From assembly GCF_004765605.1 (NCBI RefSeq), contig NZ_SRLC01000001.1, positions 1,550,001-1,614,000 of the forward strand: DNA of 64,000 nucleotides, in the 5' to 3' direction. Below the pieces are notes generated by a model. The model searched no databases and was not told the origin of the DNA. It was given only the letters and a program-made list of their open reading frames with translations. Both the position numbers and the translations under genes were made by a program. Of this stretch, positions 1,039-10,665 are shown piece after piece (position 1 is the stretch's first letter; each line of letters begins with the position of its first letter). This DNA comes from Hymenobacter aquaticus (GTDB lineage: Bacteria > Bacteroidota > Bacteroidia > Cytophagales > Hymenobacteraceae).

Positions 1039-1428
1039 CTACAGCAGCGAGAGTGGGTCGCGCTTGCGCAGGCGATACTCAAACATGGTGGCGATGTTGC
1101 GGGCCCGCTCCTTGGCGACGTTGGCCACGGGGCCGGCAAAGAGCTCCTCCACGGTAGCCTCGAACAGCGCCAGCCAGCGGCCGAAGTGGGTGGCATCCAC
1201 GGGCAGGGGCAGGTGCTTGGGAAAGGGCCGGCCGTGGTAGCGCGCGGTGCCCAGCAGCAGGCTGCTCCAGAAATCGTACATGATGGGCAGGTGCCGGGAC
1301 CAGTCGACCTGGGCGAAGCCGTTGAACACCGGGGCGAGCAGCTCGTCCTGGTTGACTTTCTGGTAGAACGTATCGACCAGGCGCTGCACGTCGGCTTCGG
1401 AGTGGATATCGGGGCGAAAAACAGTCAT
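1039..1428 (-). CDS. Group III truncated haemoglobin
   Basis: A 129-residue 2-over-2 globin of the Ctb/trHbP group. The motif FYQKVNQDELLAPVFN (about residues 21-36) carries the B10 Tyr, His46 falls where the E7 His of group III globins lies, and His72 in PFPKHLPL is the likely proximal haem ligand; WSRHLPIMYDFW is also typical. Known members bind oxygen and nitric oxide and support nitrosative-stress or low-oxygen physiology. The gene lies 19 bases downstream of a small membrane protein gene on the same strand and is transcribed away from the copper ATPase gene ccoI, so it should share the divergent regulatory region at 1901-2062. The start is the ATG at 1428. Confidence 0.92.
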   Translation of the reverse strand: MTVFRPDIHSEADVQRLVDTFYQKVNQDELLAPVFNGFAQVDWSRHLPIMYDFWSSLLLGTARYHGRPFPKHLPLPVDATHFGRWLALFEATVEELFAGPVANVAKERARNIATMFEYRLRKRDPLSLL

Positions 1429-1447: not shown

Positions 1448-1900
1448 TCAGGCCGCTTGCAGGGCCCAGCGGAACACCCGGCTGCCGGTGAGCAGCAGGG
1501 TGAGCAGCTTCACCACTTCCAGCCCGATGTAGACCGAGTGCAGGGCGCTGGGCGGGGCCGGGTGGCCGGCCAGCAGGGCCAGGGCGCGCGCGTCGAGGGC
1601 GGGCAGCAGCCAGTAGGTTTGCAGCAGCAGAATAGCGGCCAGTCCGCCCAGCGGGGCGGCAATGGCCGGGGGCACGCGCACCCACAGCGCACTGCCCACG
1701 GCCACCGTGGCCAGCAGCAGCTCCACCCAGTTCAGGGCCCCGAACACGATGCGCCCGATGCCCAGGCCCAGGGCCACGGTGATGTGGGGCGCGGTAAACT
1801 TCAGGGGCGCTTCCAGAAAGGAAATGCCGGCCACCATGCCCGCCCACACGAACAGCACCAGCACCAGCAGCAACGAGGCGGTAGAAAAGGAACGGGCCAT
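1448..1900 (-). CDS. Small four-helix membrane protein upstream of globin
   Basis: A 150-residue integral membrane protein with about four hydrophobic segments: residues 6-28, 42-70, 78-98 and 120-140. The segment GISFLEAPLKFTAP between the first two helices is the most distinctive stretch. I do not recognise a named function. It is the first gene of a two-gene unit with the truncated haemoglobin and is divergent from ccoI, which points to a role in low-oxygen or nitrosative-stress physiology. The ATG at 1900 was chosen because it starts just before the first hydrophobic helix; much longer open frames upstream on this strand run antisense through ccoI and are shadows. Confidence 0.75.
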   Translation of the reverse strand: MARSFSTASLLLVLVLFVWAGMVAGISFLEAPLKFTAPHITVALGLGIGRIVFGALNWVELLLATVAVGSALWVRVPPAIAAPLGGLAAILLLQTYWLLPALDARALALLAGHPAPPSALHSVYIGLEVVKLLTLLLTGSRVFRWALQAA

Positions 1901-2000: not shown

Positions 2001-2012
2001 TGAGATGAATCA
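2001..2012. promoter_or_regulatory. Fnr/Crp-type site, TGA-N6-TCA (first of pair)
   Basis: TGAGATGAATCA matches the half-site geometry of Fnr/Dnr boxes (TTGAT-N4-ATCAA). It lies in the divergent promoter region of the globin unit and ccoI and is exactly 22 bp from a second such site at 2023-2034. The same pair with the same spacing occurs at 7989-8022. Binding is inferred, not shown. Confidence 0.6.
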
Positions 2013-2022
2013 GGGCCGGGGC

Positions 2023-2034
2023 TGACGTTCGTCA
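2023..2034. promoter_or_regulatory. Fnr/Crp-type site, TGA-N6-TCA (second of pair)
   Basis: The sequence CTGACGTTCGTCAG is a near-perfect dyad with TGA-N6-TCA core. It sits two helical turns from the site at 2001-2012, so two dimers would lie on the same face of the DNA. It is about 30-60 bases ahead of the start of ccoI. Confidence 0.6.
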
Positions 2035-2062
2035 GCTTTCGGGCGGGGCCGGCACCGGAGCT

Positions 2063-4522
2063 TTGGGCTTCCAACTGCTTAGCCTGCCCGTGCCTCCCGT
2101 TACTGCCTCTGCTTCCGTTCCGCCCCTCACCCACCGGGCCTGCGCCCACTGCGGCGACGCCTGCCCCGAGCCGGAGCCCATCCGCCTGGCGGCCCGCCCC
2201 GCGCTGTCCTTCTGCTGCCCGGGCTGCCGGGCCGTGTATGAGCTGCTCGACGCCAGCAACCTGTGCACCTACTACCGCCTCGACGAAAACCCCGGCCGCA
2301 AGGTGAAGGCCGTGGAGCTGCCCGGCCGCTTCGACTACCTCGACCTGGAATCGGTGCAGGGCCAGCTGCTCTCGTTTCGCTCCGACACCCACGCCCGGCT
2401 CACCTTCACCATCCCGCAGATGCACTGCGCCTCCTGCATCTGGCTGCTCGAAAACCTGTTCAAACTCAACCCCGGCATCGGCAGCTCGCGGGTGAATTTC
2501 CTGCGCAAGGAGCTGACGGTAAGCTACCAGCCCCGGGTCACCAGCCTGCGCGAGGTGGTCACGCTGCTGGCCTCCATCGGCTACGAGCCCCGGATAACGC
2601 TGGCCGAGCTGGGGGCCCAGCCCCACCGCGCCAGCCGCCGCCTCACCTACCAGCTGGGCCTGGCCGCCTTTGCCTTCGGCAACGTGATGCTGATGGCCTT
2701 CCCCGACTACTTTTCCTTCACCGGGCAGCTCCAGAGCCTGTTTGGCCGCTTCTTCGGGGGGCTGAGTTTGCTGCTGGCCCTGCCGGTGCTGCTGTTCAGC
2801 GCCCGGGACTTTTACCGCTCGGCCTGGCAGGGGCTGCGGCAGCGCTACATCAACCTCGACTTTCCCATCAGCCTGGGGCTCACGGCGCTGTTCACGACCA
2901 GCGTGTTCGACATCGCCACCGGCCGCGGCCCGGGCTACCTCGACTCGTTCACCGGCCTGGTGTTCTTCATGCTCATCGGCAAGTGGGTGCAGCAGCGCAC
3001 CTACGACGCGCTGCGCTTCGACCGGGACTTCACCGCCTACTTCCCCGTGGCCGTGACCCTGCTGACCAAAGACGGCGGCGAGCAGTCGGTGGCGGTGCGG
3101 GAGCTGCGGGCCGGGCAGCGCATCCGGGTGCGGCACCAGGAAATCATTCCCGCCGACGCGGTGCTGCTGCGCGGCTCCGGCCTGATCGACTACAGCTTCG
3201 TCTCGGGCGAGAGTCTACCGGTCGGCAAAGTGGCCGGCGACGTGGTGTACGCCGGGGGCCGGCAGGTGGGCCCGGCCGTGGAGCTGGAAGTGGTGCGGGA
3301 AGTATCGCAGGGCTACCTCACCCAGCTCTGGAACAACCCCGCCTTTGCCAAGGACGCCCGGCCCACGCTGGAAACCTACGCCAACACGGTGGGCCGCTAC
3401 TTCGTGGCCGTGACCCTGCTGCTGGCCGCCGGCGCGGCTTGCTACTGGTTTCCGCGCGACCCGCAGCTGGCCCTGCGGGCCGGCACCTCGGTGCTGGTCA
3501 TTGCCTGCCCCTGCGCCCTGTCGTTGGCCACGCCCTTTGCCCTGGGCGCGGCCCTGCGGGTGCTGGGCCGCCACCAGTTGTATCTGAAAAACGCGGCCGT
3601 GGTCGAAACCCTGGGCCGGGCCACCACCCTGGTGTTCGACAAAACCGGCACCCTGACCGACCCCCAGCGCGCCGCGGTCAGCTTCCACGGGCTGGCGCTG
3701 CGCCCGGCAGACGAGCAGCGCGTGGCCGCCCTGGCCCGCCACTCGACCCACCCGCTCAGCCAGCGGCTCGTCGAGCAGCTCGGCCCCGCGGCCCTGCCGG
3801 TCACTAACTTCCGCGAAACGACGGGCCAGGGCCTCTGCGGCACGGTGGCGGGCCGCGCGGTGCGCCTGGGCTCGGCGGCCTTCGTGGGCCTGCCCCCGGC
3901 CCCGCACGGCGAGCGGCAGGCGCGGGTGTACGTGGCCCTGGATGGCCTGGTGGCCGGCTGGTACGAAGTCAGCAGCGAATACCGGCCCGACCTGGCCCCG
4001 CTGCTGCGCCAGCTGGGCCAGCGCTACCAGCTGGCCCTGCTCACCGGCGACAACGCCGCCGACGAGCCCCGCCTGCGCCAGCTCTTCGGCCCCGCCGCCG
4101 AGCTGCGCTTCCACCAGTCGCCGCTCGACAAGCTGCACTTCGTGGAAGCCCGGCAGCGGCAGGGCCAGCGCGTGGTCATGGTCGGCGACGGGCTCAACGA
4201 CGCCGGGGCCCTGCGCCGCGCCGACGCCGGCCTGGCCCTCTCCGAAACCCTGACCAACTTCTCCCCCGCCTGCGACGCCATGCTGGACGCCGGCAGCCTC
4301 GGGCAGCTCAGCACCTTCCTGCGGTTCGGCCAGGACTGCCTGCACATCGTGCTGGCCACCTTCGTGCTGTCGTTCTGCTACAACGGTATCGGGCTGGGCC
4401 TGGCCGTGCAGGGCCGCTTCACCCCCATCGTGTCGGCCATCCTGATGCCCATCAGCTCGCTGAGCGTGATGGTGTTTGCCACCCTGCTGGTGCGCTACGC
4501 GGCCCATCGGCGCGGCCTGTAA
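2063..4522 (+). CDS. ccoI: Copper-transporting P1B-type ATPase for cbb3 oxidase assembly (CcoI/FixI)
   Basis: An 819-residue P1B ATPase. Numbering from a TTG at 2063, it has an N-terminal Cys cluster (C27-A-H-C30 and C51-C-P-G-C55) typical of CcoI, a heavy-metal domain motif MHCASC at 120-125, the transmembrane CPC at 482-484, the phosphorylation motif DKTGT at 526-530, and the GDGLND hinge motif. The family moves copper out of the cytoplasm to supply the CuB site of cytochrome cbb3 oxidase. No ATG lies near the N-terminus; TTG 2063 and GTG 2090 are both possible and the second removes nine residues with no effect on the domains. ccoS follows after 21 bases, and the cbb3 structural genes lie 3.5 kb downstream. 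Confidence 0.95.
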   Translation: MGFQLLSLPVPPVTASASVPPLTHRACAHCGDACPEPEPIRLAARPALSFCCPGCRAVYELLDASNLCTYYRLDENPGRKVKAVELPGRFDYLDLESVQGQLLSFRSDTHARLTFTIPQMHCASCIWLLENLFKLNPGIGSSRVNFLRKELTVSYQPRVTSLREVVTLLASIGYEPRITLAELGAQPHRASRRLTYQLGLAAFAFGNVMLMAFPDYFSFTGQLQSLFGRFFGGLSLLLALPVLLFSARDFYRSAWQGLRQRYINLDFPISLGLTALFTTSVFDIATGRGPGYLDSFTGLVFFMLIGKWVQQRTYDALRFDRDFTAYFPVAVTLLTKDGGEQSVAVRELRAGQRIRVRHQEIIPADAVLLRGSGLIDYSFVSGESLPVGKVAGDVVYAGGRQVGPAVELEVVREVSQGYLTQLWNNPAFAKDARPTLETYANTVGRYFVAVTLLLAAGAACYWFPRDPQLALRAGTSVLVIACPCALSLATPFALGAALRVLGRHQLYLKNAAVVETLGRATTLVFDKTGTLTDPQRAAVSFHGLALRPADEQRVAALARHSTHPLSQRLVEQLGPAALPVTNFRETTGQGLCGTVAGRAVRLGSAAFVGLPPAPHGERQARVYVALDGLVAGWYEVSSEYRPDLAPLLRQLGQRYQLALLTGDNAADEPRLRQLFGPAAELRFHQSPLDKLHFVEARQRQGQRVVMVGDGLNDAGALRRADAGLALSETLTNFSPACDAMLDAGSLGQLSTFLRFGQDCLHIVLATFVLSFCYNGIGLGLAVQGRFTPIVSAILMPISSLSVMVFATLLVRYAAHRRGL

Positions 4523-4543
4523 CCCTACTTTTCCCCTCGCGCC

Positions 4544-4690
4544 ATGACCATTATCTTTCTGCTGATCGGCATCAGCCTGCTCGTGGCCCTGCTGTTTCTG
4601 GGCGGCTTCCTCTGGGCCGTGCGCTCGGGCCAGTACGAAGACGACTACACGCCCTCGGTCCGCATGCTCTTCGACGACGAGCCGGAGTAG
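4544..4690 (+). CDS. ccoS: Cytochrome oxidase maturation protein CcoS
   Basis: A 48-residue protein starting MTIIFLLIGISLLVALLFLG: one N-terminal membrane helix (residues 2-25) followed by the short acidic tail SGQYEDDYTPS typical of CcoS/FixS. CcoS is needed to insert haem and copper cofactors into the CcoN subunit. It begins 21 bases after the ccoI stop and is probably cotranscribed. It is short and easily missed, but the length, helix and the tail with Gln-Tyr-Asp/Glu-Asp fit the family well. Confidence 0.93.
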   Translation: MTIIFLLIGISLLVALLFLGGFLWAVRSGQYEDDYTPSVRMLFDDEPE

Positions 4691-4718
4691 CTGGTGGATT
4701 GTTAAACGCCGCCGGCGA

Positions 4719-4746
4719 GTAGCGCGAACTAGGCAGTTCGCGCTAC
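4719..4746. repeat. Perfect 12-bp inverted repeat
   Basis: GTAGCGCGAACT (4719-4730) and its exact complement (4735-4746) flank a 4-base loop, 28 bases after ccoS. It could fold as a 3' end hairpin for the ccoIS transcript. There is no T run. Confidence 0.65.
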
Positions 4747-4807
4747 CCGCCCAACCACCGTTGCCGGGGCCCGACTCGCGCGGAACACGCGGGCTACAAC
4801 CGAAGAG

Positions 4808-4958
4808 CCGCAGTCGCTCGGCTGCGCCGAGTGACCACTACGCCGGAGGGGCTCTGCCCCGAGCGTCCCGCGCCGCTGGGTCGTTCTGACGGCGCGGGCT
4901 ACTTCGCAGCACAGCTGCTCAAGCGTAGGCGTCACTCGGCACAGCCGAGCGACTGCGG
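4808..4958. repeat. Long inverted repeat, 28-base arms
   Basis: CCGCAGTCGCTCGGCTG-type arms at 4808-4835 and 4931-4958 are inverted copies with one mismatch, about 95 bases apart. Each arm has an internal dyad (CTCGGC/GCCGAG). I read it as another REP-like element; the intervening DNA shows no gene. Confidence 0.65.
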
Positions 4959-5002
4959 GAATTTAAGAGTAGCGTGAGTTCGAGACGGGCGGCCACCCGG
5001 AG

Positions 5003-5172
5003 CCCGGTCGGCTGGTTAAGAATTATTTTCTTTTTGAGCTTTGCTAACCGCCCAGTTAAGAATTAATTTATTTTCATTTTTTGCTAACCGCCTGGTTAAC
5101 AATTAAGTTATTTTCACTTTTTCTTAACCATCTGGTTAAGAATTATTTTATTTTCGACTATTCCTAACCACC
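5003..5172. promoter_or_regulatory. 40-bp-period operator-like array upstream of the XRE regulator
   Basis: Four AT-rich units repeat at exactly 40 bases. GGTTAAG-type half-sites start at 5014, 5054, 5094 and 5134, and the CTAACC-type halves start at 5044, 5084, 5124 and 5164, so dyads of the form CTAACC-N4-GGTTAA lie at 5043-5060, 5083-5100 and 5123-5140; the last (CTTAACC-ATCT-GGTTAAG) is perfect. The array ends 16 bases before the regulator's start codon. It looks like an operator array for that protein; this is inferred from position. Confidence 0.7.
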
Positions 5173-5188
5173 GTATACCCTGCTGCTT

Positions 5189-5788
5189 ATGGGCCGTCGT
5201 GCATACCACTCTAACAGCTTGTCGGCCCAGGTGCGGCGGCATTTCAGCCTTACCCAGGCCGAGCTGGCCCAGTTTGTGGGCGTGAGTGCGCCCATGCTGG
5301 CCATGGCGGAATCGGGGCGCAAGGCGCTGGGGAAAGCGGCCGACAACCGGCTGTGGGTGCTGGCCCGCCTGCTGCCCCCACCCGATGGCCAGGGCCCCGA
5401 AGCGCCGGCCCCGGCCGCGGAGCCGGTTTCGGACCCGGCCGCGCCCCCGGAGGCGGCCGTGTTGGAGCAGCGCCTGAGCCGCCTGCGCTTCTACGTCATC
5501 AAGGCCCGCTTCGAACTGGGGCAGCGCGGCACGCTGGCCCAGGGGCAGGCCCGCCGCCGCTGGGCCCAGGAGGTGCTGCGCCCCCTGCTGGCCGCCCCGC
5601 CCGTGGAGGCGGTCTGGCTCGGGGCCGACCCCGCCCGTGACCTGTACTGGCTGGAGGGGCTGGTGATTCACACCAACGCCGCCCCCCTCACGCTGAGCGC
5701 CACCGAGCGGGCCCTGCGCCAGGCCCGGCTGCGCGGCCTCGAAGCGGAAGTGGCGGCCCTGGAGCAGGCCCTGGCCCCCAACACGTAG
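5189..5788 (+). CDS. XRE-like helix-turn-helix regulator
   Basis: A 199-residue protein with an N-terminal helix-turn-helix at about residues 10-50 (FSLTQAELAQFVGVSAPMLAMAESG), the classical Cro/C1 pattern in which a Gln-rich turn is followed by a recognition helix. The rest is Ala/Pro/Leu-rich with a predicted helical C-terminal half (residues 90-199) of no known family. The ATG at 5189 lies just after the 40-bp dyad array, so autoregulation is likely. The gene stands alone between ccoS and a REP copy. Its targets are unknown; a link with the respiration genes on each side is only positional. Confidence 0.8.
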   Translation: MGRRAYHSNSLSAQVRRHFSLTQAELAQFVGVSAPMLAMAESGRKALGKAADNRLWVLARLLPPPDGQGPEAPAPAAEPVSDPAAPPEAAVLEQRLSRLRFYVIKARFELGQRGTLAQGQARRRWAQEVLRPLLAAPPVEAVWLGADPARDLYWLEGLVIHTNAAPLTLSATERALRQARLRGLEAEVAALEQALAPNT

Positions 5789-5842
5789 CGACGCAGATTC
5801 GCGGCTCAGGCGGGGCTGAGGTTGTTAGGGCACGTTGCCAAC

Positions 5843-5879
5843 CGTTCAACGAGGAGACGCAATAGGTTGCGTCTCTACC
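5843..5879. repeat. Single REP-A copy
   Basis: CGTTCAACGAGGAGACGCAA followed by TAGGTTGCGTCTCTACC matches one arm of the REP-A pair at 663-786. It lies directly 3' of the thioredoxin-like gene. Confidence 0.7.
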
Positions 5880-5884
5880 CCCGG

Positions 5885-6484
5885 TTAGCGGCCTGGGGCG
5901 GCCAGCTTTTCCAGGGCGGCTTTGAACTCGGGGGTGTCGTAGTCGGCCATGCCCTCGTGGCGGGCGGCTACCTGGCCGTCGGGCCCGAGGATGACGGTGC
6001 TGGGAATGGAGTTGGAATCGAAGGGGGCGGGCAGGGTGGCGGTGGGAAAGTACACCGGGAAGGTGTAGCCCTGGCGCGTGAGCAGCTTGCGGGCCTTGTC
6101 CGGGTTCTGGTCGAGGGAAATCATGACGAAGGCCACCTTCTGCGGGTCCAGCTTTTTGTACAGGGCATGAATGCCGGGCATCTCGGCCACGCAGGGCGGG
6201 CACCAACTGGCCCAGAGGTTGACGAACACCACCTTGCCCCGGAACGCGCTGAGCTGCACTTCCCGGCCGCTGTTATCCAGCAGCGTCAGGTTGTGCGGGT
6301 AGCCGCTGGCGCTGGTAGCTACTACCGGGGCCGGCGCGGGCAGCGTGGGCGTTTCCGCCTTCCACAGGCCCGTAGCCAGCAAGCCGCGCTGCAAACCGCC
6401 CAGCACCGGCGTGCGCAGATCGGTGAACAGCACGAGGGCCAGCAGGGCCAAGGGCAGCCACTGCAACAGGTTTTTACGATTCAT
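5885..6484 (-). CDS. TlpA-like thiol-disulfide oxidoreductase
   Basis: A 199-residue membrane-anchored thioredoxin-fold protein. Residues 8-22 form one hydrophobic anchor, followed by a low-complexity Pro/Ala linker, then an AhpC/TSA-Redoxin domain from about residue 62 with active site WASWCPPC (C95 and C98) and the cis-Pro region NSIPSTVILGPDG. Family members act on the periplasmic side, reducing cysteines of c-type cytochrome apoproteins or copper-site proteins. Its place between the ccoIS genes and the cbb3 operon fits a role in oxidase maturation. Start ATG at 6484. A polytopic membrane protein gene lies upstream on the same strand with a 68-base gap. Confidence 0.88.
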   Translation of the reverse strand: MNRKNLLQWLPLALLALVLFTDLRTPVLGGLQRGLLATGLWKAETPTLPAPAPVVATSASGYPHNLTLLDNSGREVQLSAFRGKVVFVNLWASWCPPCVAEMPGIHALYKKLDPQKVAFVMISLDQNPDKARKLLTRQGYTFPVYFPTATLPAPFDSNSIPSTVILGPDGQVAARHEGMADYDTPEFKAALEKLAAPGR

Positions 6485-6552
6485 AAGCCAAGGGCGCGGG
6501 CCAGGGAAAGAGAACTGCCCGGCTAACAGCGGCGAAGGTACGGTGGTTCGGG

Positions 6553-7257
6553 TTAGCCATTTACAGGCGTGGCCGCCAACCGGCGCGCCCGCACCAGCTG
6601 CCGGATGGCGGCCAGGTGGGCCAGCAGCACCAGGGGCACCACGCAGCCCGGCAGCCACACAAACGGGAAGTGCAGCACGGCCACGTTGGGCTGCCCGAAG
6701 CCGAAGCGCTGCACGGGCGAGGGCACGGCCAGCACCGCGTAGAACACCACGTTCAGCAGCAAAGCCAGGCACAGGCCGTTCCAGACCAGCAGCGCCGTGG
6801 GGCTGAGCCGGGGCCGCCGGAACGCCAGGTACCAGACCACCGGCGCGCTCAGGCCCGAGAGAATATCCCAGTTGCGGCCCTCGAAGGTCATCAGCTGGGG
6901 CACCGCGCCGTGCAGAAACAACCCTAGCAAGACCAGCTCTACCGGCACCCGCACCACGTGCAGCAGCGTGAGCCACTCGGGACGCAGCGCGTCGAGGTAG
7001 GCCCGGCCGCGGGCAGTGAGAAACAGGGTGGCAATCAGCAGCAGGGCCGGGGCCAGCACCAAGGCCAGCCGGGGCGGCAGGGCCTGGGGCGCTCCGCTGA
7101 AGAAGCCCGTGCCGGCTACCGCGCCCTGCCCCGCCAGCCAGGCCAGCAGCAGGTAGAGCGTGGGGCGGGACTGGTGGGCGGCGCGGTAGAACAGCCCCAC
7201 CGCGAGGGCCGTGGTGAGGCCGAAAGCCAGGCTGAGGGCAAGCGGTACGGTTGACAT
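6553..7257 (-). CDS. Polytopic membrane protein of unknown function
   Basis: A 234-residue protein with about seven hydrophobic segments spread over residues 4-225, a conserved-looking GRNWDILSGLSAPVVWYLAF stretch near residue 133, and a basic C-terminal tail. I do not recognise the family by name. It lies between the Crp/Fnr regulator and the TlpA-like gene, all on the minus strand, so it may belong to a unit serving low-oxygen respiration. The ATG at 7257 directly precedes the first hydrophobic helix; an ATG 27 bases upstream would add nine residues. Confidence 0.7.
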   Translation of the reverse strand: MSTVPLALSLAFGLTTALAVGLFYRAAHQSRPTLYLLLAWLAGQGAVAGTGFFSGAPQALPPRLALVLAPALLLIATLFLTARGRAYLDALRPEWLTLLHVVRVPVELVLLGLFLHGAVPQLMTFEGRNWDILSGLSAPVVWYLAFRRPRLSPTALLVWNGLCLALLLNVVFYAVLAVPSPVQRFGFGQPNVAVLHFPFVWLPGCVVPLVLLAHLAAIRQLVRARRLAATPVNG

Positions 7258-7329
7258 GGCGGACGGGGAAATGGTACGCCACAAAGGAACCGGGCCGGCC
7301 GGTTTTTTAGCTTGCCAAATGGCAAGAAA

Positions 7330-7920
7330 TCAGGCGGGGCCGGGGTCTTTGCCGGCGGCCCGGATGCGGCTTAACGACGAATCGGTGACGCCCAGGAAGG
7401 AGGCCACGTGCTTGAGGGGCACGTGCTGCAGAATCTCGGGACTGGCGCTGAGCAGGGCCGCGTAGCGGGCCGAGGCGGTGGCCGTGGTCAGGGCCAGCAG
7501 GCGGCCTTTGAGCCGGCTCAGCTCGCGCACCAGCACCGCGCGGCCGAACTCCCGGAACTCGGGCCGGGCGTGAAACAGGCCATTGAGCTGCTGGTAGGTG
7601 ATGCACCAGCCCCGGCAGTTGGTGAGGGCCTGCAAGTGCTCCTGCGAGGGGGTGCGGTTGAAAAACGAGGCCACTTCCAGCACCACCTGCCCGGCCGAGA
7701 AAAAGCCCGTGGTGACGTCGTGGCCGGCGTCGTCGTAGGCAAAGGCCCGCACGAAGCCCTGCTCCAGGAACAGGTACTCGTTGCTGATGCGGCCGGCGGG
7801 CAGCAGAAACTCGTTTTTGGCCAGCGTCCGGGCGCGGAAGCTCTGGGCAATGTCGGCGGCCTGGGCGGCGCTGACGTTGCCCATACTTTGCAGAAAGCCA
7901 ATCAGCGAGTCTCGGTCCAT
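7330..7920 (-). CDS. Crp/Fnr-family transcription regulator
   Basis: A 196-residue regulator with an N-terminal cyclic-nucleotide-binding-like beta barrel (about residues 25-115, including LPAGRISNEYLFLEQGFVRAF) and a C-terminal winged helix with recognition helix VTDSSLSRIR at about 176-185. There is no N-terminal cysteine cluster like that of E. coli Fnr, so it should not carry an oxygen-sensing iron-sulfur cluster of that type. The Ser-Arg of the Fnr E-x-x-S-R recognition motif is kept but the Glu position is Ser. It is divergent from ccoNO across a region with two TGA-N6-TCA sites and is the natural candidate to control it. Confidence 0.9.
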   Translation of the reverse strand: MDRDSLIGFLQSMGNVSAAQAADIAQSFRARTLAKNEFLLPAGRISNEYLFLEQGFVRAFAYDDAGHDVTTGFFSAGQVVLEVASFFNRTPSQEHLQALTNCRGWCITYQQLNGLFHARPEFREFGRAVLVRELSRLKGRLLALTTATASARYAALLSASPEILQHVPLKHVASFLGVTDSSLSRIRAAGKDPGPA

Positions 7921-7988
7921 AGGCGGGGCGGGGGCGGCACGGCCGCAAGCTACGCCGCGGGGGCCGCCCGGCCAAGCCGCCGGGGGCC

Positions 7989-8000
7989 TGACATCAATCA
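7989..8000. promoter_or_regulatory. Fnr/Crp-type site, TGA-N6-TCA (first of pair)
   Basis: CTGACATCAATCAG carries TGA-N6-TCA between the Crp/Fnr gene and ccoNO. It is exactly 22 bp from the next site and matches the arrangement at 2001-2034, including the GGnCCGGGGC spacer between them. Confidence 0.65.
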
Positions 8001-8010
8001 GGCCCGGGGC

Positions 8011-8022
8011 TGACATTCATCA
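8011..8022. promoter_or_regulatory. Fnr/Crp-type site, TGA-N6-TCA (second of pair)
   Basis: TGACATTCATCA, 61 bases ahead of the ccoNO start codon, is the second member of the pair. Its partner in the ccoI region is TGACGTTCGTCA. The position suits activation of ccoNO. Confidence 0.65.
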
Positions 8023-8082
8023 TCTTTTCGAAAATGGCCCCGCAGGACCTTTGAAGCAGTACAACACCTACTTCTGAAGCCT

Positions 8083-10290
8083 ATGCCCGTCGAACCCCTA
8101 CCCCCGCTAGCGGTGCCCCATCCGCCCCTGGTACCCACGACTCCCGCCCGGGCGGTTGACACCTTTTTCTACGACAACAAGATCGTGCGCGACTTCGGGG
8201 TGGCCACCGTCATCTGGGGTATTATCGGCATGCTGGTCGGCGTGCTGGCGGCCTTCCAGCTGGCCCGGCCCGAGCTGAACATGGGCACGGCCTACACCAC
8301 CTTCGGCCGCATCCGGCCGCTGCACACCAACGCCGTGATTTTCGCCTTCGTCGGCAACGGCATCTTCACCGGGGTGTACTACTCCTTGCAGCGCCTGTGC
8401 AAAGCCCGGATGTTCAGTGGCACGCTCAGCAAAATCCACTTTTGGGGCTGGCAGCTGATTATCCTCTCGGCCGTGGCTACGCTGCCTTTGGGCTTTACCA
8501 CCAGCAAGGAATACGCCGAGCTGGAGTGGCCCATCGACATTGCCATTACCCTGGTCTGGGTGGTGTTTGGCTGGAACATGTTCGGCACCATTGCCCGGCG
8601 GCGCGAGCGGCACCTCTACGTGGGCATCTGGTTCTACATTGCCACCTTCCTGACGGTGGCCGTGCTGCACATCGTCAACTCGCTGGCCGTGCCGGTGTCG
8701 TTTATGAAAAGCTACTCCGTGTACGCCGGCGTGCAGGATGCCCTGGTGCAGTGGTGGTACGGCCACAACGCGGTGGCCTTCTTCCTGACCACGCCCTACC
8801 TGGGCCTGATGTACTACTTCCTGCCCAAGGCCGCCGGCCGGCCGGTGTACTCCTACCGCCTCTCCATCATTCACTTCTGGTCCCTGATTTTCATCTACAT
8901 CTGGGCCGGGCCGCACCACTTGCTCTACACCGCCCTGCCCGACTGGGCCCAGAGCCTGGGCGTGGCTTTCTCCGTGATGCTGATTGCCCCCAGCTGGGGC
9001 GGCATGATCAACGGCCTGCTGACGTTGCGCGGGGCCTGGGACAAAGTGCGCGAGGAGCCCGTGCTCAAGTTCATGGTCGTGGCCGTGACGGCCTACGGCA
9101 TGGCCACCTTCGAGGGGCCCATGCTGAGCCTGAAGAACGTCAACGCCATTGCCCATTTCACCGACTGGATTGTGGCCCACGTGCACGTGGGGGCCCTGGG
9201 CTGGAACGGCTTCCTGACCTTCGCCATGCTCTACTGGCTGTGGCCCCGCCTCTACCGCACCGCCCTGTATTCCAAGAAGCTGGCCACGATGCACTTCTGG
9301 CTGGGCACCATCGGCATCCTGTTCTACGCCCTGCCCATGTACTGGGCCGGCTTCACCCAGGGTTTGATGTGGAAGCAGTTCAACGCCGAGGGTATGCTGC
9401 AATACCCCAACTTCCTGGAAACCGTGATGCATATCGTGCCCATGTACTACCTGCGCGGCATCGGCGGGGTGCTCTACCTGAGCGGGGTGTTCGTGATGCT
9501 GTATAACCTGGTGAAAACGGCCCGGGCCGGCTCCCTGCTGGCCAATGAAAAGGCCCAGGCCGCGCCCCTGCTGCCCGAAGCCCAGGACCCGCACGCCCAG
9601 GGCGGCCACTGGCACCGCTGGCTTGAGCGGCGGCCCTTCCAGCTGGCCGTGGGCGCCACCGTGGCCATTCTCATCGGCGGCGCCATCGAAATGATTCCCA
9701 CGTTTCTGGTCAAGAGCAACGTGCCCACCATTGCCGCCGTGAAGCCCTACACCGCCCTCGAATTGCAGGGCCGCGACATCTACATCAAGGAGGGCTGCTC
9801 GAACTGCCACACCCAGATGGTGCGCCCCTTCCGCTCCGAAACCGAGCGGTACGGCGAGTACTCCAAGGCCGGGGAGTTCGTCTACGACCGGCCCTTCCTC
9901 TGGGGCTCGAAGCGCACCGGCCCCGATTTGCACCGCGTGGGCGCCAAGTACCCCCACTCCTGGCACTACAACCACATGCTGGACCCCACCAGCATGTCGC
10001 CCGGCTCGATTATGCCCGCCTACCCCTGGCTGTTCGAAAACAGCATCGACTACAGCACCCTGCCCAAGAAAATCACCGTGCTGCAAAGTCTGGGTACGCC
10101 CTACCCCGCCGGCTACGACCAGCAGGCCGTGGCCGACGCCCGACGCCAGGCCCGGGGCATTGCCCAGGAGCTGCGCAAAGAGGAAATCGAGGTCAAGTCC
10201 GACAAGGAAATCGTGGCCCTGATTGCCTACCTCCAGCGCCTGGGCACCGACATCAAAGTCAAGCCCGAACAGGTTACGGCCGCCAGGTAA
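8083..10290 (+). CDS. ccoNO: Fused cbb3 cytochrome c oxidase subunits I/II (CcoNO)
   Basis: A 735-residue fusion. Residues 30-500 are the twelve-helix CcoN catalytic subunit, with haem and CuB ligand histidines in segments such as GRIRPLHTNAVIF, WWYGHNAVAFFL, YIWAGPHHLLYTALPDW and VAHVHVGALGWNGF. Residues 545-735 are CcoO, a membrane-anchored mono-haem cytochrome c with CSNCH at 572-576 and the axial Met region. It reduces oxygen with high affinity and pumps protons. The CcoN-CcoO fusion is common in Bacteroidota. The start ATG 8083 follows a region with two Fnr-type sites; ccoQ comes after an unusual 463-base gap that holds a 21-bp array. Confidence 0.97.
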   Translation: MPVEPLPPLAVPHPPLVPTTPARAVDTFFYDNKIVRDFGVATVIWGIIGMLVGVLAAFQLARPELNMGTAYTTFGRIRPLHTNAVIFAFVGNGIFTGVYYSLQRLCKARMFSGTLSKIHFWGWQLIILSAVATLPLGFTTSKEYAELEWPIDIAITLVWVVFGWNMFGTIARRRERHLYVGIWFYIATFLTVAVLHIVNSLAVPVSFMKSYSVYAGVQDALVQWWYGHNAVAFFLTTPYLGLMYYFLPKAAGRPVYSYRLSIIHFWSLIFIYIWAGPHHLLYTALPDWAQSLGVAFSVMLIAPSWGGMINGLLTLRGAWDKVREEPVLKFMVVAVTAYGMATFEGPMLSLKNVNAIAHFTDWIVAHVHVGALGWNGFLTFAMLYWLWPRLYRTALYSKKLATMHFWLGTIGILFYALPMYWAGFTQGLMWKQFNAEGMLQYPNFLETVMHIVPMYYLRGIGGVLYLSGVFVMLYNLVKTARAGSLLANEKAQAAPLLPEAQDPHAQGGHWHRWLERRPFQLAVGATVAILIGGAIEMIPTFLVKSNVPTIAAVKPYTALELQGRDIYIKEGCSNCHTQMVRPFRSETERYGEYSKAGEFVYDRPFLWGSKRTGPDLHRVGAKYPHSWHYNHMLDPTSMSPGSIMPAYPWLFENSIDYSTLPKKITVLQSLGTPYPAGYDQQAVADARRQARGIAQELRKEEIEVKSDKEIVALIAYLQRLGTDIKVKPEQVTAAR

Positions 10291-10392: not shown

Positions 10393-10665
10393 AGCCCGAG
10401 CACTGCATCAGCACATTCAAGTGTCATGTCAGCTCATTCAAGTCTCATGTCAGCTCATTTGAATGTCATGTCAGCTCATTTGAGTCTGATGTCAGCGCCC
10501 TTGAGTGTCATGTCAGCTCATTCGAGTGCCATGTCAGCGCCCTTGAGTGCCGTGTCAATGCACTTGAGTGTCATGTCAGCTCATTCAAGTGCCGTGTCAG
10601 CGGGCAAAAGCATCCTGTCACCTCATTAAAGCACCCTGTCAGGTCACGAAAGGCTGCTGTCAGCA
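10393..10665. repeat. 21-bp tandem array, about 13 units, inside the cco operon
   Basis: Units of exactly 21 bases built on CATTNRAGTGYCATGTCAGCT begin at 10393, 10414, 10435 and so on to 10645. The last four units are more diverged. The array lies between ccoNO and ccoQ, so it should be transcribed as part of the operon mRNA unless a promoter or terminator intervenes. The period matches the arrays at 813-1020 and 55745-55990, though the sequences are unrelated. Confidence 0.88.

Follow-up and report, generated by a model that had tools for sequence, protein, structure and literature searches.

Two divergent intergenic regions in a 64,000-nucleotide (nt) stretch of the Hymenobacter aquaticus genome (contig NZ_SRLC01000001.1, positions 1,550,001 to 1,614,000 of the forward strand; the window) carry the same paired TGA-N6-TCA boxes, one region lying between a globin unit and the copper ATPase gene ccoI, the other between a Crp/Fnr-family gene and the cbb3 oxidase gene ccoNO. 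Which regulator reads these pairs, and which promoters does it serve? The initial annotation had described boxes with a common core, 22 bp apart from centre to centre, in both regions, and this proved exact at all four sites. The pair at 2001-2034 reads TGAGATGAATCA-N10-TGACGTTCGTCA (boxes 2001-2012 and 2023-2034, forward strand), and the pair at 7989-8022 reads TGACATCAATCA-N10-TGACATTCATCA (boxes 7989-8000 and 8011-8022, forward strand). Pattern matching to TGA-N6-TCA-N10-TGA-N6-TCA gave no mismatch in either pair, so that all four are perfect boxes of the Crp/Fnr type, as had been suggested for their core. The window contains 20 TGA-N6-TCA boxes including these four, compared with 5.77 expected in shuffled sequences, and the two pairs are the only boxes that lie 12 to 60 bp from each other. 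Genome-wide (5.51 Mb), five perfect 22-bp pairs were found versus none of a reversed control. The GC-rich spacer that the annotation had noted is indeed similar in the two window copies; its sequence varies among relatives, however, and we therefore rejected it as a shared functional element.

The annotation's idea would have been undermined had relatives not kept the paired spacing, but the spacing is conserved. Among 80 ccoNO loci, mostly from Bacteroidota, in which box distances were counted over 12 to 60 bp, the 22-bp spacing occurred 80 times and the 23-bp spacing 6 times, compared with a mean of 0.87 at the 47 other spacings. Loci of the genus gave 82 occurrences at 22 bp and 15 at 23 bp, with a mean of 0.09 per other spacing. 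This genus set is not a genome-wide sample; it consists of 82 stretches, namely 46 around hits to ccoN or to REC-Crp (a receiver-Crp fusion protein described below), 30 ccoN loci (G074 belongs to another family), five own-genome stretches chosen for holding boxes, and the window. Of the 80 ccoNO loci, 47 had a pair spaced at 22 or 23 bp, and in 29 such a pair lay no more than 420 bp upstream of ccoN. The genus promoters were more uniform: a perfect 22- or 23-bp pair preceded ccoN in 22 of 29 genomes, the other seven having a single mismatch in one box, and ccoI was preceded by a perfect pair in 26 of 28 cases, with one more carrying a single mismatch and one lacking the pair. Upstream of the operon that encodes REC-Crp and a histidine kinase, 28 of 42 regions had a perfect pair and four more had one mismatch. 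Summed over 99 genomes, 253 perfect pairs were found versus 11 for the reversed control. The observation thus holds well beyond the window, mainly within the class. Because one Crp binding sequence spans 22 bp (PMC5449483), this spacing would set two dimers next to each other at a distance of about two helical turns.

By eye, CTTTG follows both window pairs at equal distance. Over pairs that had not been selected for TTTG, this core started exactly 28 nt past the pair in at least one direction for 67 of 86 pairs in the 80-locus set (both directions, 7) and for 80 of 97 pairs in the genus set (both directions, 16). Counted by strand, 74 of 172 strands in the 80-locus set had TTTG at offset 28, compared with a mean of 1.22 per other offset. 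The -7 box of flavobacterial sigma-A promoters, TAnnTTTG, spans -12 to -5 (PMC9723704). Combined with these published coordinates, the offset of 28 nt would centre the near box at -41.5, the position of a class II activator, and the far box at -63.5.

On this geometry, box 2023-2034 would be the near box and 2001-2012 the far box of the ccoI promoter, followed by the -7 element GAGCTTTG at 2058-2065 (forward strand; TTTG 28 nt past the pair) and a predicted transcription start at 2070. ccoI itself, a ccoI/fixI-type copper P-type ATPase gene (2090-4522, forward strand; Pfam E1-E2_ATPase, HMA, and ATPase-cat_bd), was assigned a GTG start at 2090, since translation from 2063 would begin ahead of the predicted transcription start. 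For ccoNO (8083-10290, forward strand), a fusion of cbb3 oxidase subunits I and II with PRK14485 and TIGR00780 over cut-off, the near box would be 8011-8022 and the far box 7989-8000, with the -7 element GACCTTTG at 8046-8053 (forward strand) and a predicted start at 8058. Letter-by-letter comparison was confined to promoters selected for TTTG at offset 28; among the 23 genus ccoN promoters so selected, all contained GACCTTTG, with GACC invariant. A second TTTG lay 27 to 29 nt out on the opposite side of the pair in 20 of 27 ccoI promoters (19 of 26 without the G040 entry, which is probably the promoter of a thioredoxin-like gene) but in only 1 of 23 ccoN promoters. The window's ccoI/globin region is among the two-sided cases: an opposite -7 element, CATCTTTG, lies at 1969-1976 on the reverse strand, with TTTG 29 nt past the pair and a predicted start at about 1964. 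It points to the globin unit, which comprises a membrane-protein open reading frame (ORF) without a family match (1448-1900, reverse strand) as the first gene and a truncated-haemoglobin-like globin gene (1039-1428, reverse strand; PF01152, E 3.1e-08). With TTTG flanking it on either side, the pair may act in both directions, 2001-2012 then being the near box of the opposite promoter, so that the ccoI pair may serve the globin unit too. At ccoN, the pair appears to face ccoN and not the Crp/Fnr gene.

The own genome contains nine matches to the cNMP-binding family, eight of them over cut-off. REC-Crp, a 350-residue protein (C1:1536984-1538036), is encoded directly after a PAS histidine kinase in an operon (C1:1535372-1538036) located 12 to 15 kb upstream of the window. 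It unites Response_reg, cNMP_binding, and HTH_Crp_2 domains in one protein, and no NCBIfam model was over cut-off among the best 25 of 107. The receiver Asp, Thr, and Lys and the recognition-helix Glu and Arg were invariant in all 72 REC-Crp proteins compared, and the kinase was adjacent at 70 of the 72 loci. The kinase PAS domain matched the FixL structure (PDB 1d06, E 3.7e-12) as well as DosP structures, and the kinase of a Pedobacter homologue matched FixL with an E value of 1.3e-29. The equivalent of FixL His200 was kept in 67 of 70 kinases; totals here and for Arg220 below cover all 70, as 14 of them had been classed as FixL-like only after inspection. From these matches we infer that the kinase would bind haem and sense oxygen. 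Two observations on the REC-Crp genes may be added. In G008, REC-Crp appears twice as two overlapping frames that meet near query residue 225-227 (C64:735-1783 and C52:52670-53718), and second or third paralogues with 50 to 81 percent identity to the query occur in G026, G056, G057, G034, G011, and G051.

The number of pairs follows the presence of REC-Crp. The 99 genomes in which co-occurrence was evaluated comprised 61 of the genus, among them the own genome, and 38 from outside it; hit lists were gone through by hand for the presence of REC-Crp, an FNR-like protein, ccoNO, and the neighbouring Crp/Fnr protein, and the figures were retyped into scripts. G008 was scored as having REC-Crp, and G036, with a receiver-only fragment, as lacking it. 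At least two 22-bp pairs were present in 53 of 60 genomes with REC-Crp compared with 3 of 39 without it. The same held within the genus (39/45 versus 3/16) and outside it (14/15 versus 0/23). Outside the genus, 4 of 12 ccoN upstream regions from REC-Crp genomes had a perfect pair and 4 had a second box with one mismatch, whereas none of 12 such regions from genomes without REC-Crp had either. Twelve pair-bearing ccoN loci had been picked because no REC-Crp gene lay in the stretch; eight of them come from genomes that encode REC-Crp elsewhere.

A second sample of 247 genomes (61 of the same class and 186 others) was searched with a stricter pattern, the pair plus TTTG. The pattern was found in 24 of 38 genomes with REC-Crp versus 3 of 209 without it, and the reversed control in none of the 247. 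Leaving out six previously used genomes changed this to 21 of 33 versus 3 of 208. REC-Crp occurred in 38 of the 61 genomes of the class and in none of the 186 others, so that the within-class comparison is the fair one; it gave 24 of 38 with REC-Crp versus 2 of 23 without (P 3.6e-5).

We therefore propose a mechanism in which each 34-bp pair would be a double operator on which two dimers of a Crp/Fnr-type activator abut, both on one face of the helix. With the near box at about -41.5 and the far box at about -63.5, ahead of the -7 element, the pair would be placed for class II contact between activator and RNA polymerase. Between ccoI and the globin unit, and wherever else TTTG flanks a pair on both sides, a single pair could serve both directions, each box being near for one promoter and far for the other. 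We consider REC-Crp, which is encoded with the PAS histidine kinase, the most likely activator. Because this kinase is FixL-like, low oxygen would raise the phosphorylation of REC-Crp, which would switch on the cbb3 oxidase, the copper pump, the globin unit, genes for haem synthesis and stress, and perhaps its own operon. Taken as a whole, this explanation, with REC-Crp as a double class II activator driven by a FixL-like kinase, appears probable to us on the sequence evidence. The annotation had supposed that one regulator links oxygen reduction, copper delivery, and a nitric-oxide/oxygen globin. That part can be kept, as something to be concluded from the operator common to the cbb3 oxidase gene, ccoI, and the globin unit; its tentative identification of the regulator with the neighbouring Crp/Fnr protein (7330-7920) was not supported, for the reasons given below.

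What stands behind the pairs looks like a micro-oxic regulon. In the 80 loci together with 29 loci from the second sample, there were 107 TTTG-directed directions, behind which lay ccoNO (24), ccoI (11), a 2-hydroxyacid dehydrogenase (10), FixG (5), Usp (4), and one each of a thioredoxin-like protein, a FixL-type kinase, and BON; 50 were unmatched to the references or had no ORF. Pfam was run on 20 of 40 unmatched ORFs. Seven had no match, and the others included ferrochelatase, glutamyl-tRNA reductase, hemerythrin (2), radical SAM (2), Usp, HSP20, and YceI, among others. One of the radical-SAM proteins passed the HemN cut-off, as did a further Hufsiella gene (in locus L106). In three Sphingobacteriales loci (L105, L103, and L106), the pair shares sequence with the end of the REC-Crp gene and has TTTG at 28 toward the 2-hydroxyacid dehydrogenase; in L106, hemN follows. 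In the own genome, a perfect pair at L037 10903-10936 (G000:C1:316903-316936) lies in a stress-type gene cluster and has no TTTG within 60 nt in either direction; on one side of it is a cation P-type ATPase gene, and on the other an ORF that resembles a globin on visual inspection but gave no Pfam match.

Several observations count against this explanation. A perfect pair was missing within 420 bp upstream of ccoN in 51 of the 80 ccoNO loci, and 10 of 42 kinase promoters had no pair. In other families, 4 of the 12 ccoN upstream regions from REC-Crp genomes had neither a perfect nor a one-mismatch pair. In the own genome, TTTG stood at 28 for only three of the five perfect pairs, and the pair of its own kinase is spaced at 23 bp and lacks TTTG at 28. 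A recount of 29 kinase pairs found TTTG toward the kinase in 6 and toward a divergent thioredoxin-like gene in 15, so that self-control of the REC-Crp/kinase operon is weakly supported. The equivalent of FixL Arg220, in a column set by aligning the kinase PAS domain to the FixL structure, was kept in 45 of 70 kinases, and in 28 of the 47 from the genus. In the second sample, 3 of 27 genomes with the pair plus TTTG lacked REC-Crp, 14 of 38 REC-Crp genomes lacked the pattern, and outside the class the pattern was found in just 1 of 186 genomes. Of the 12 loci picked for having no REC-Crp in the stretch, four come from genomes without it; all four are metagenome bins, and two have an FNR-like gene in the locus. 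The presence of ccoNO was itself associated with pairs (at least two in 41 of 55 genomes with it versus 15 of 44 without). As the sole cause of the association, however, ccoNO was rejected: 12 genomes with ccoNO and no REC-Crp had a mean of 0.25 pairs, compared with 2.53 in 17 genomes that had REC-Crp but lacked ccoNO. The helix Glu is shared by four other Crp-type proteins of the own genome, and the co-occurrence counts covered REC-Crp, the FNR-like protein, ccoNO, and the neighbouring protein. It should be noted that co-occurrence is not binding and that related genomes are not independent.

An alternative is that REC-Crp shares the pairs with the FNR-like protein (241 residues, C2:523108-523830), so that the kinase signal and cytoplasmic oxygen would be integrated at one operator. 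Both proteins have recognition helices with Glu and Arg, 31 of the 99 genomes encode both, and pairs also occur beside FNR-like genes. When REC-Crp is present, however, the FNR-like protein brings no clear rise in the number of pairs (mean 4.0 with both versus 3.83), and we consider joint use possible but unlikely.

That the FNR-like protein alone is the main regulator, sensing oxygen directly, would agree with several of its features. FNR recognition-helix residues served for comparison. The protein has N-terminal cysteines at 16, 19, and 30, as in the FNR cysteine cluster, and its helix, GTAKETASR, is of the FNR kind (E-T-A-S-R, within E-x-x-S-R). Here, as in six other genomes of the genus, a pair lies 158 to 468 bp past its gene, the gene is near ccoN in some lineages, and three genomes of one genus that lack REC-Crp have a single box at ccoN with TTTG at 28. 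Pair numbers nevertheless do not follow its presence: at least two pairs were found in 31 of 55 genomes with it and in 25 of 44 without it (means 2.56 and 2.55), and outside the genus the relation was weakly negative (2 of 14 versus 12 of 24). The 24 genomes with the FNR-like protein and no REC-Crp had a mean of 0.71 pairs, compared with 3.83 in the 29 genomes of the reverse kind. For this reason we rejected it as the main regulator and regard such a role as improbable. At L041 6109-7083 (G000:C2), a perfect pair comes after the FNR-like gene and has TTTG at 28 toward a small downstream gene.

The four other Crp-type proteins of the own genome (C1:485851, C1:1762291, C3:452935, and C3:639992) all carry the recognition-helix Glu, and one of them might read the pairs. 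Yet among the ORFs near ccoN in the 80 loci none of the four turned up as a best match, whereas many of these loci contain a REC-Crp or FNR-like gene and none another Crp type as best match; the prospect is a very slim one.

The annotation's own candidate was the neighbouring Crp/Fnr-family protein (7330-7920, reverse strand). Its gene is divergent from a pair at 3 of 10 orthologue loci, at one of which (G054) ccoN is not beside it. The evidence otherwise speaks against binding by this protein. Its recognition helix, GVTDSSLSR, lacks the Glu, and D-S/T-S-L-S-R replaced that residue in all 10 orthologues examined (17 were found), whereas Glu is present at the position in REC-Crp, the FNR-like protein, and the four other Crp-type proteins. 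The orthologue was below cut-off in 44 of 61 genomes of the genus (found in 17 of 61), adjoins ccoN, by coordinates, in only two genomes (that of the window and G017), and was the best match of no ORF in the 80 ccoNO loci. Pair numbers were independent of it (mean 3.1 with the orthologue versus 3.25 without; P 0.88, 61 genus genomes), and on the side of the pair that faces its gene, TTTG is absent from the first 70 nt. We rejected the candidate on its helix, its absence from most genomes of the genus, and the lack of a best match in the 80 loci. The neighbouring gene is probably not the regulator, and binding of the pairs by its product is most improbable.

Chance or a recent promoter duplication inside this genome is hardly credible and is refuted by conservation: although the two window 34-mers agree at 29 of 34 bases, a 22-bp pair arose in none of 400 Markov simulations of the window, the same promoters bear pairs throughout the genus, each with its own core letters, and pairs occur in other families as well.

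Three repeat arrays were observed in the window. Beside the globin gene, at 812-1012, the 21-bp unit TAGGTTCGGAAGGTACCCGGG is repeated in tandem about 9.6 times. At 10408-10652, about nine copies of a 21-bp unit separate ccoNO from the cbb3 genes that follow it. The third array, at 5012-5169, has an AT-rich unit of 40 bp in four copies; it precedes a helix-turn-helix gene (5189-5788) and is possibly the operator array of that gene.

In a flavobacterium, the cbb3 oxidase is strongly raised under oxygen limitation (PMC9723704). Our searches of an open-access library found no regulator or operator for this low-oxygen rise in Bacteroidota, and those on REC-Crp fusions, on FNR in tandem, and on FixL together with cbb3 in Bacteroidetes were likewise unproductive. 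The available part of one paper assigns other regulators in Flavobacteriales and Saprospiraceae and does not contain the word tandem (PMC8510549); another reports a fixL gene next to a cbb3 oxidase in one genome bin (PMC9083452). The fixed geometry of pair and -7 element offers a testable operator with which micro-oxic regulons could be predicted in many genomes. Whether it belongs to a class-wide circuit, in which a FixL-like haem-PAS kinase would phosphorylate a receiver-Crp fusion whose abutting dimers on 22-bp pairs would form a double class II activator, able to work both ways, and would control micro-oxic respiration, haem synthesis, and stress genes, is a question on which we are evenly divided.

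Compared with known systems, the proposed promoters would resemble class II Crp/Fnr promoters of Escherichia coli in their core, in a near box over the -35/-33 region, and in a second dimer upstream (PMC5449483). They differ in a spacing fixed at 22 bp across many genera, in the TAnnTTTG-type promoter, and in a pair that is sometimes usable both ways; one operator would then serve two divergent class II promoters. In E. coli, FNR is found bound in tandem. The oxygen regulons of FNR, FnrL, and ANR include the cbb3 oxidase, hemN, and Usp-type genes, the same target set as here, whereas REC-Crp of the own genome has a single cysteine, located in the receiver domain, and thus no N-terminal cysteine cluster.

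The best reading of the system is a condensed form of the FixL-FixJ-FixK cascade, mainly within this class of Bacteroidota. As in the relay of rhizobia used for comparison, there would be an oxygen-sensor-type PAS kinase, a receiver regulator, and a Crp/Fnr activator on a TGA...TCA palindrome (PMC4999443). The putative phospho-Asp and the Thr and Lys of FixLJ receivers have counterparts in every REC-Crp protein compared. The rhizobial targets include the cbb3 oxidase and fixGHI-type genes, and similar targets are suggested here by the pairs that precede such genes. Unlike in rhizobia, receiver and Crp output are joined in one protein instead of separate FixJ and FixK, so that a three-protein relay would have been shortened by gene fusion and no FixJ-to-FixK transcription step would remain. 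Further differences are the fixed 22-bp paired boxes, the Bacteroidota -7 element, and a match to the FixL Arg that is not universal among these kinases.

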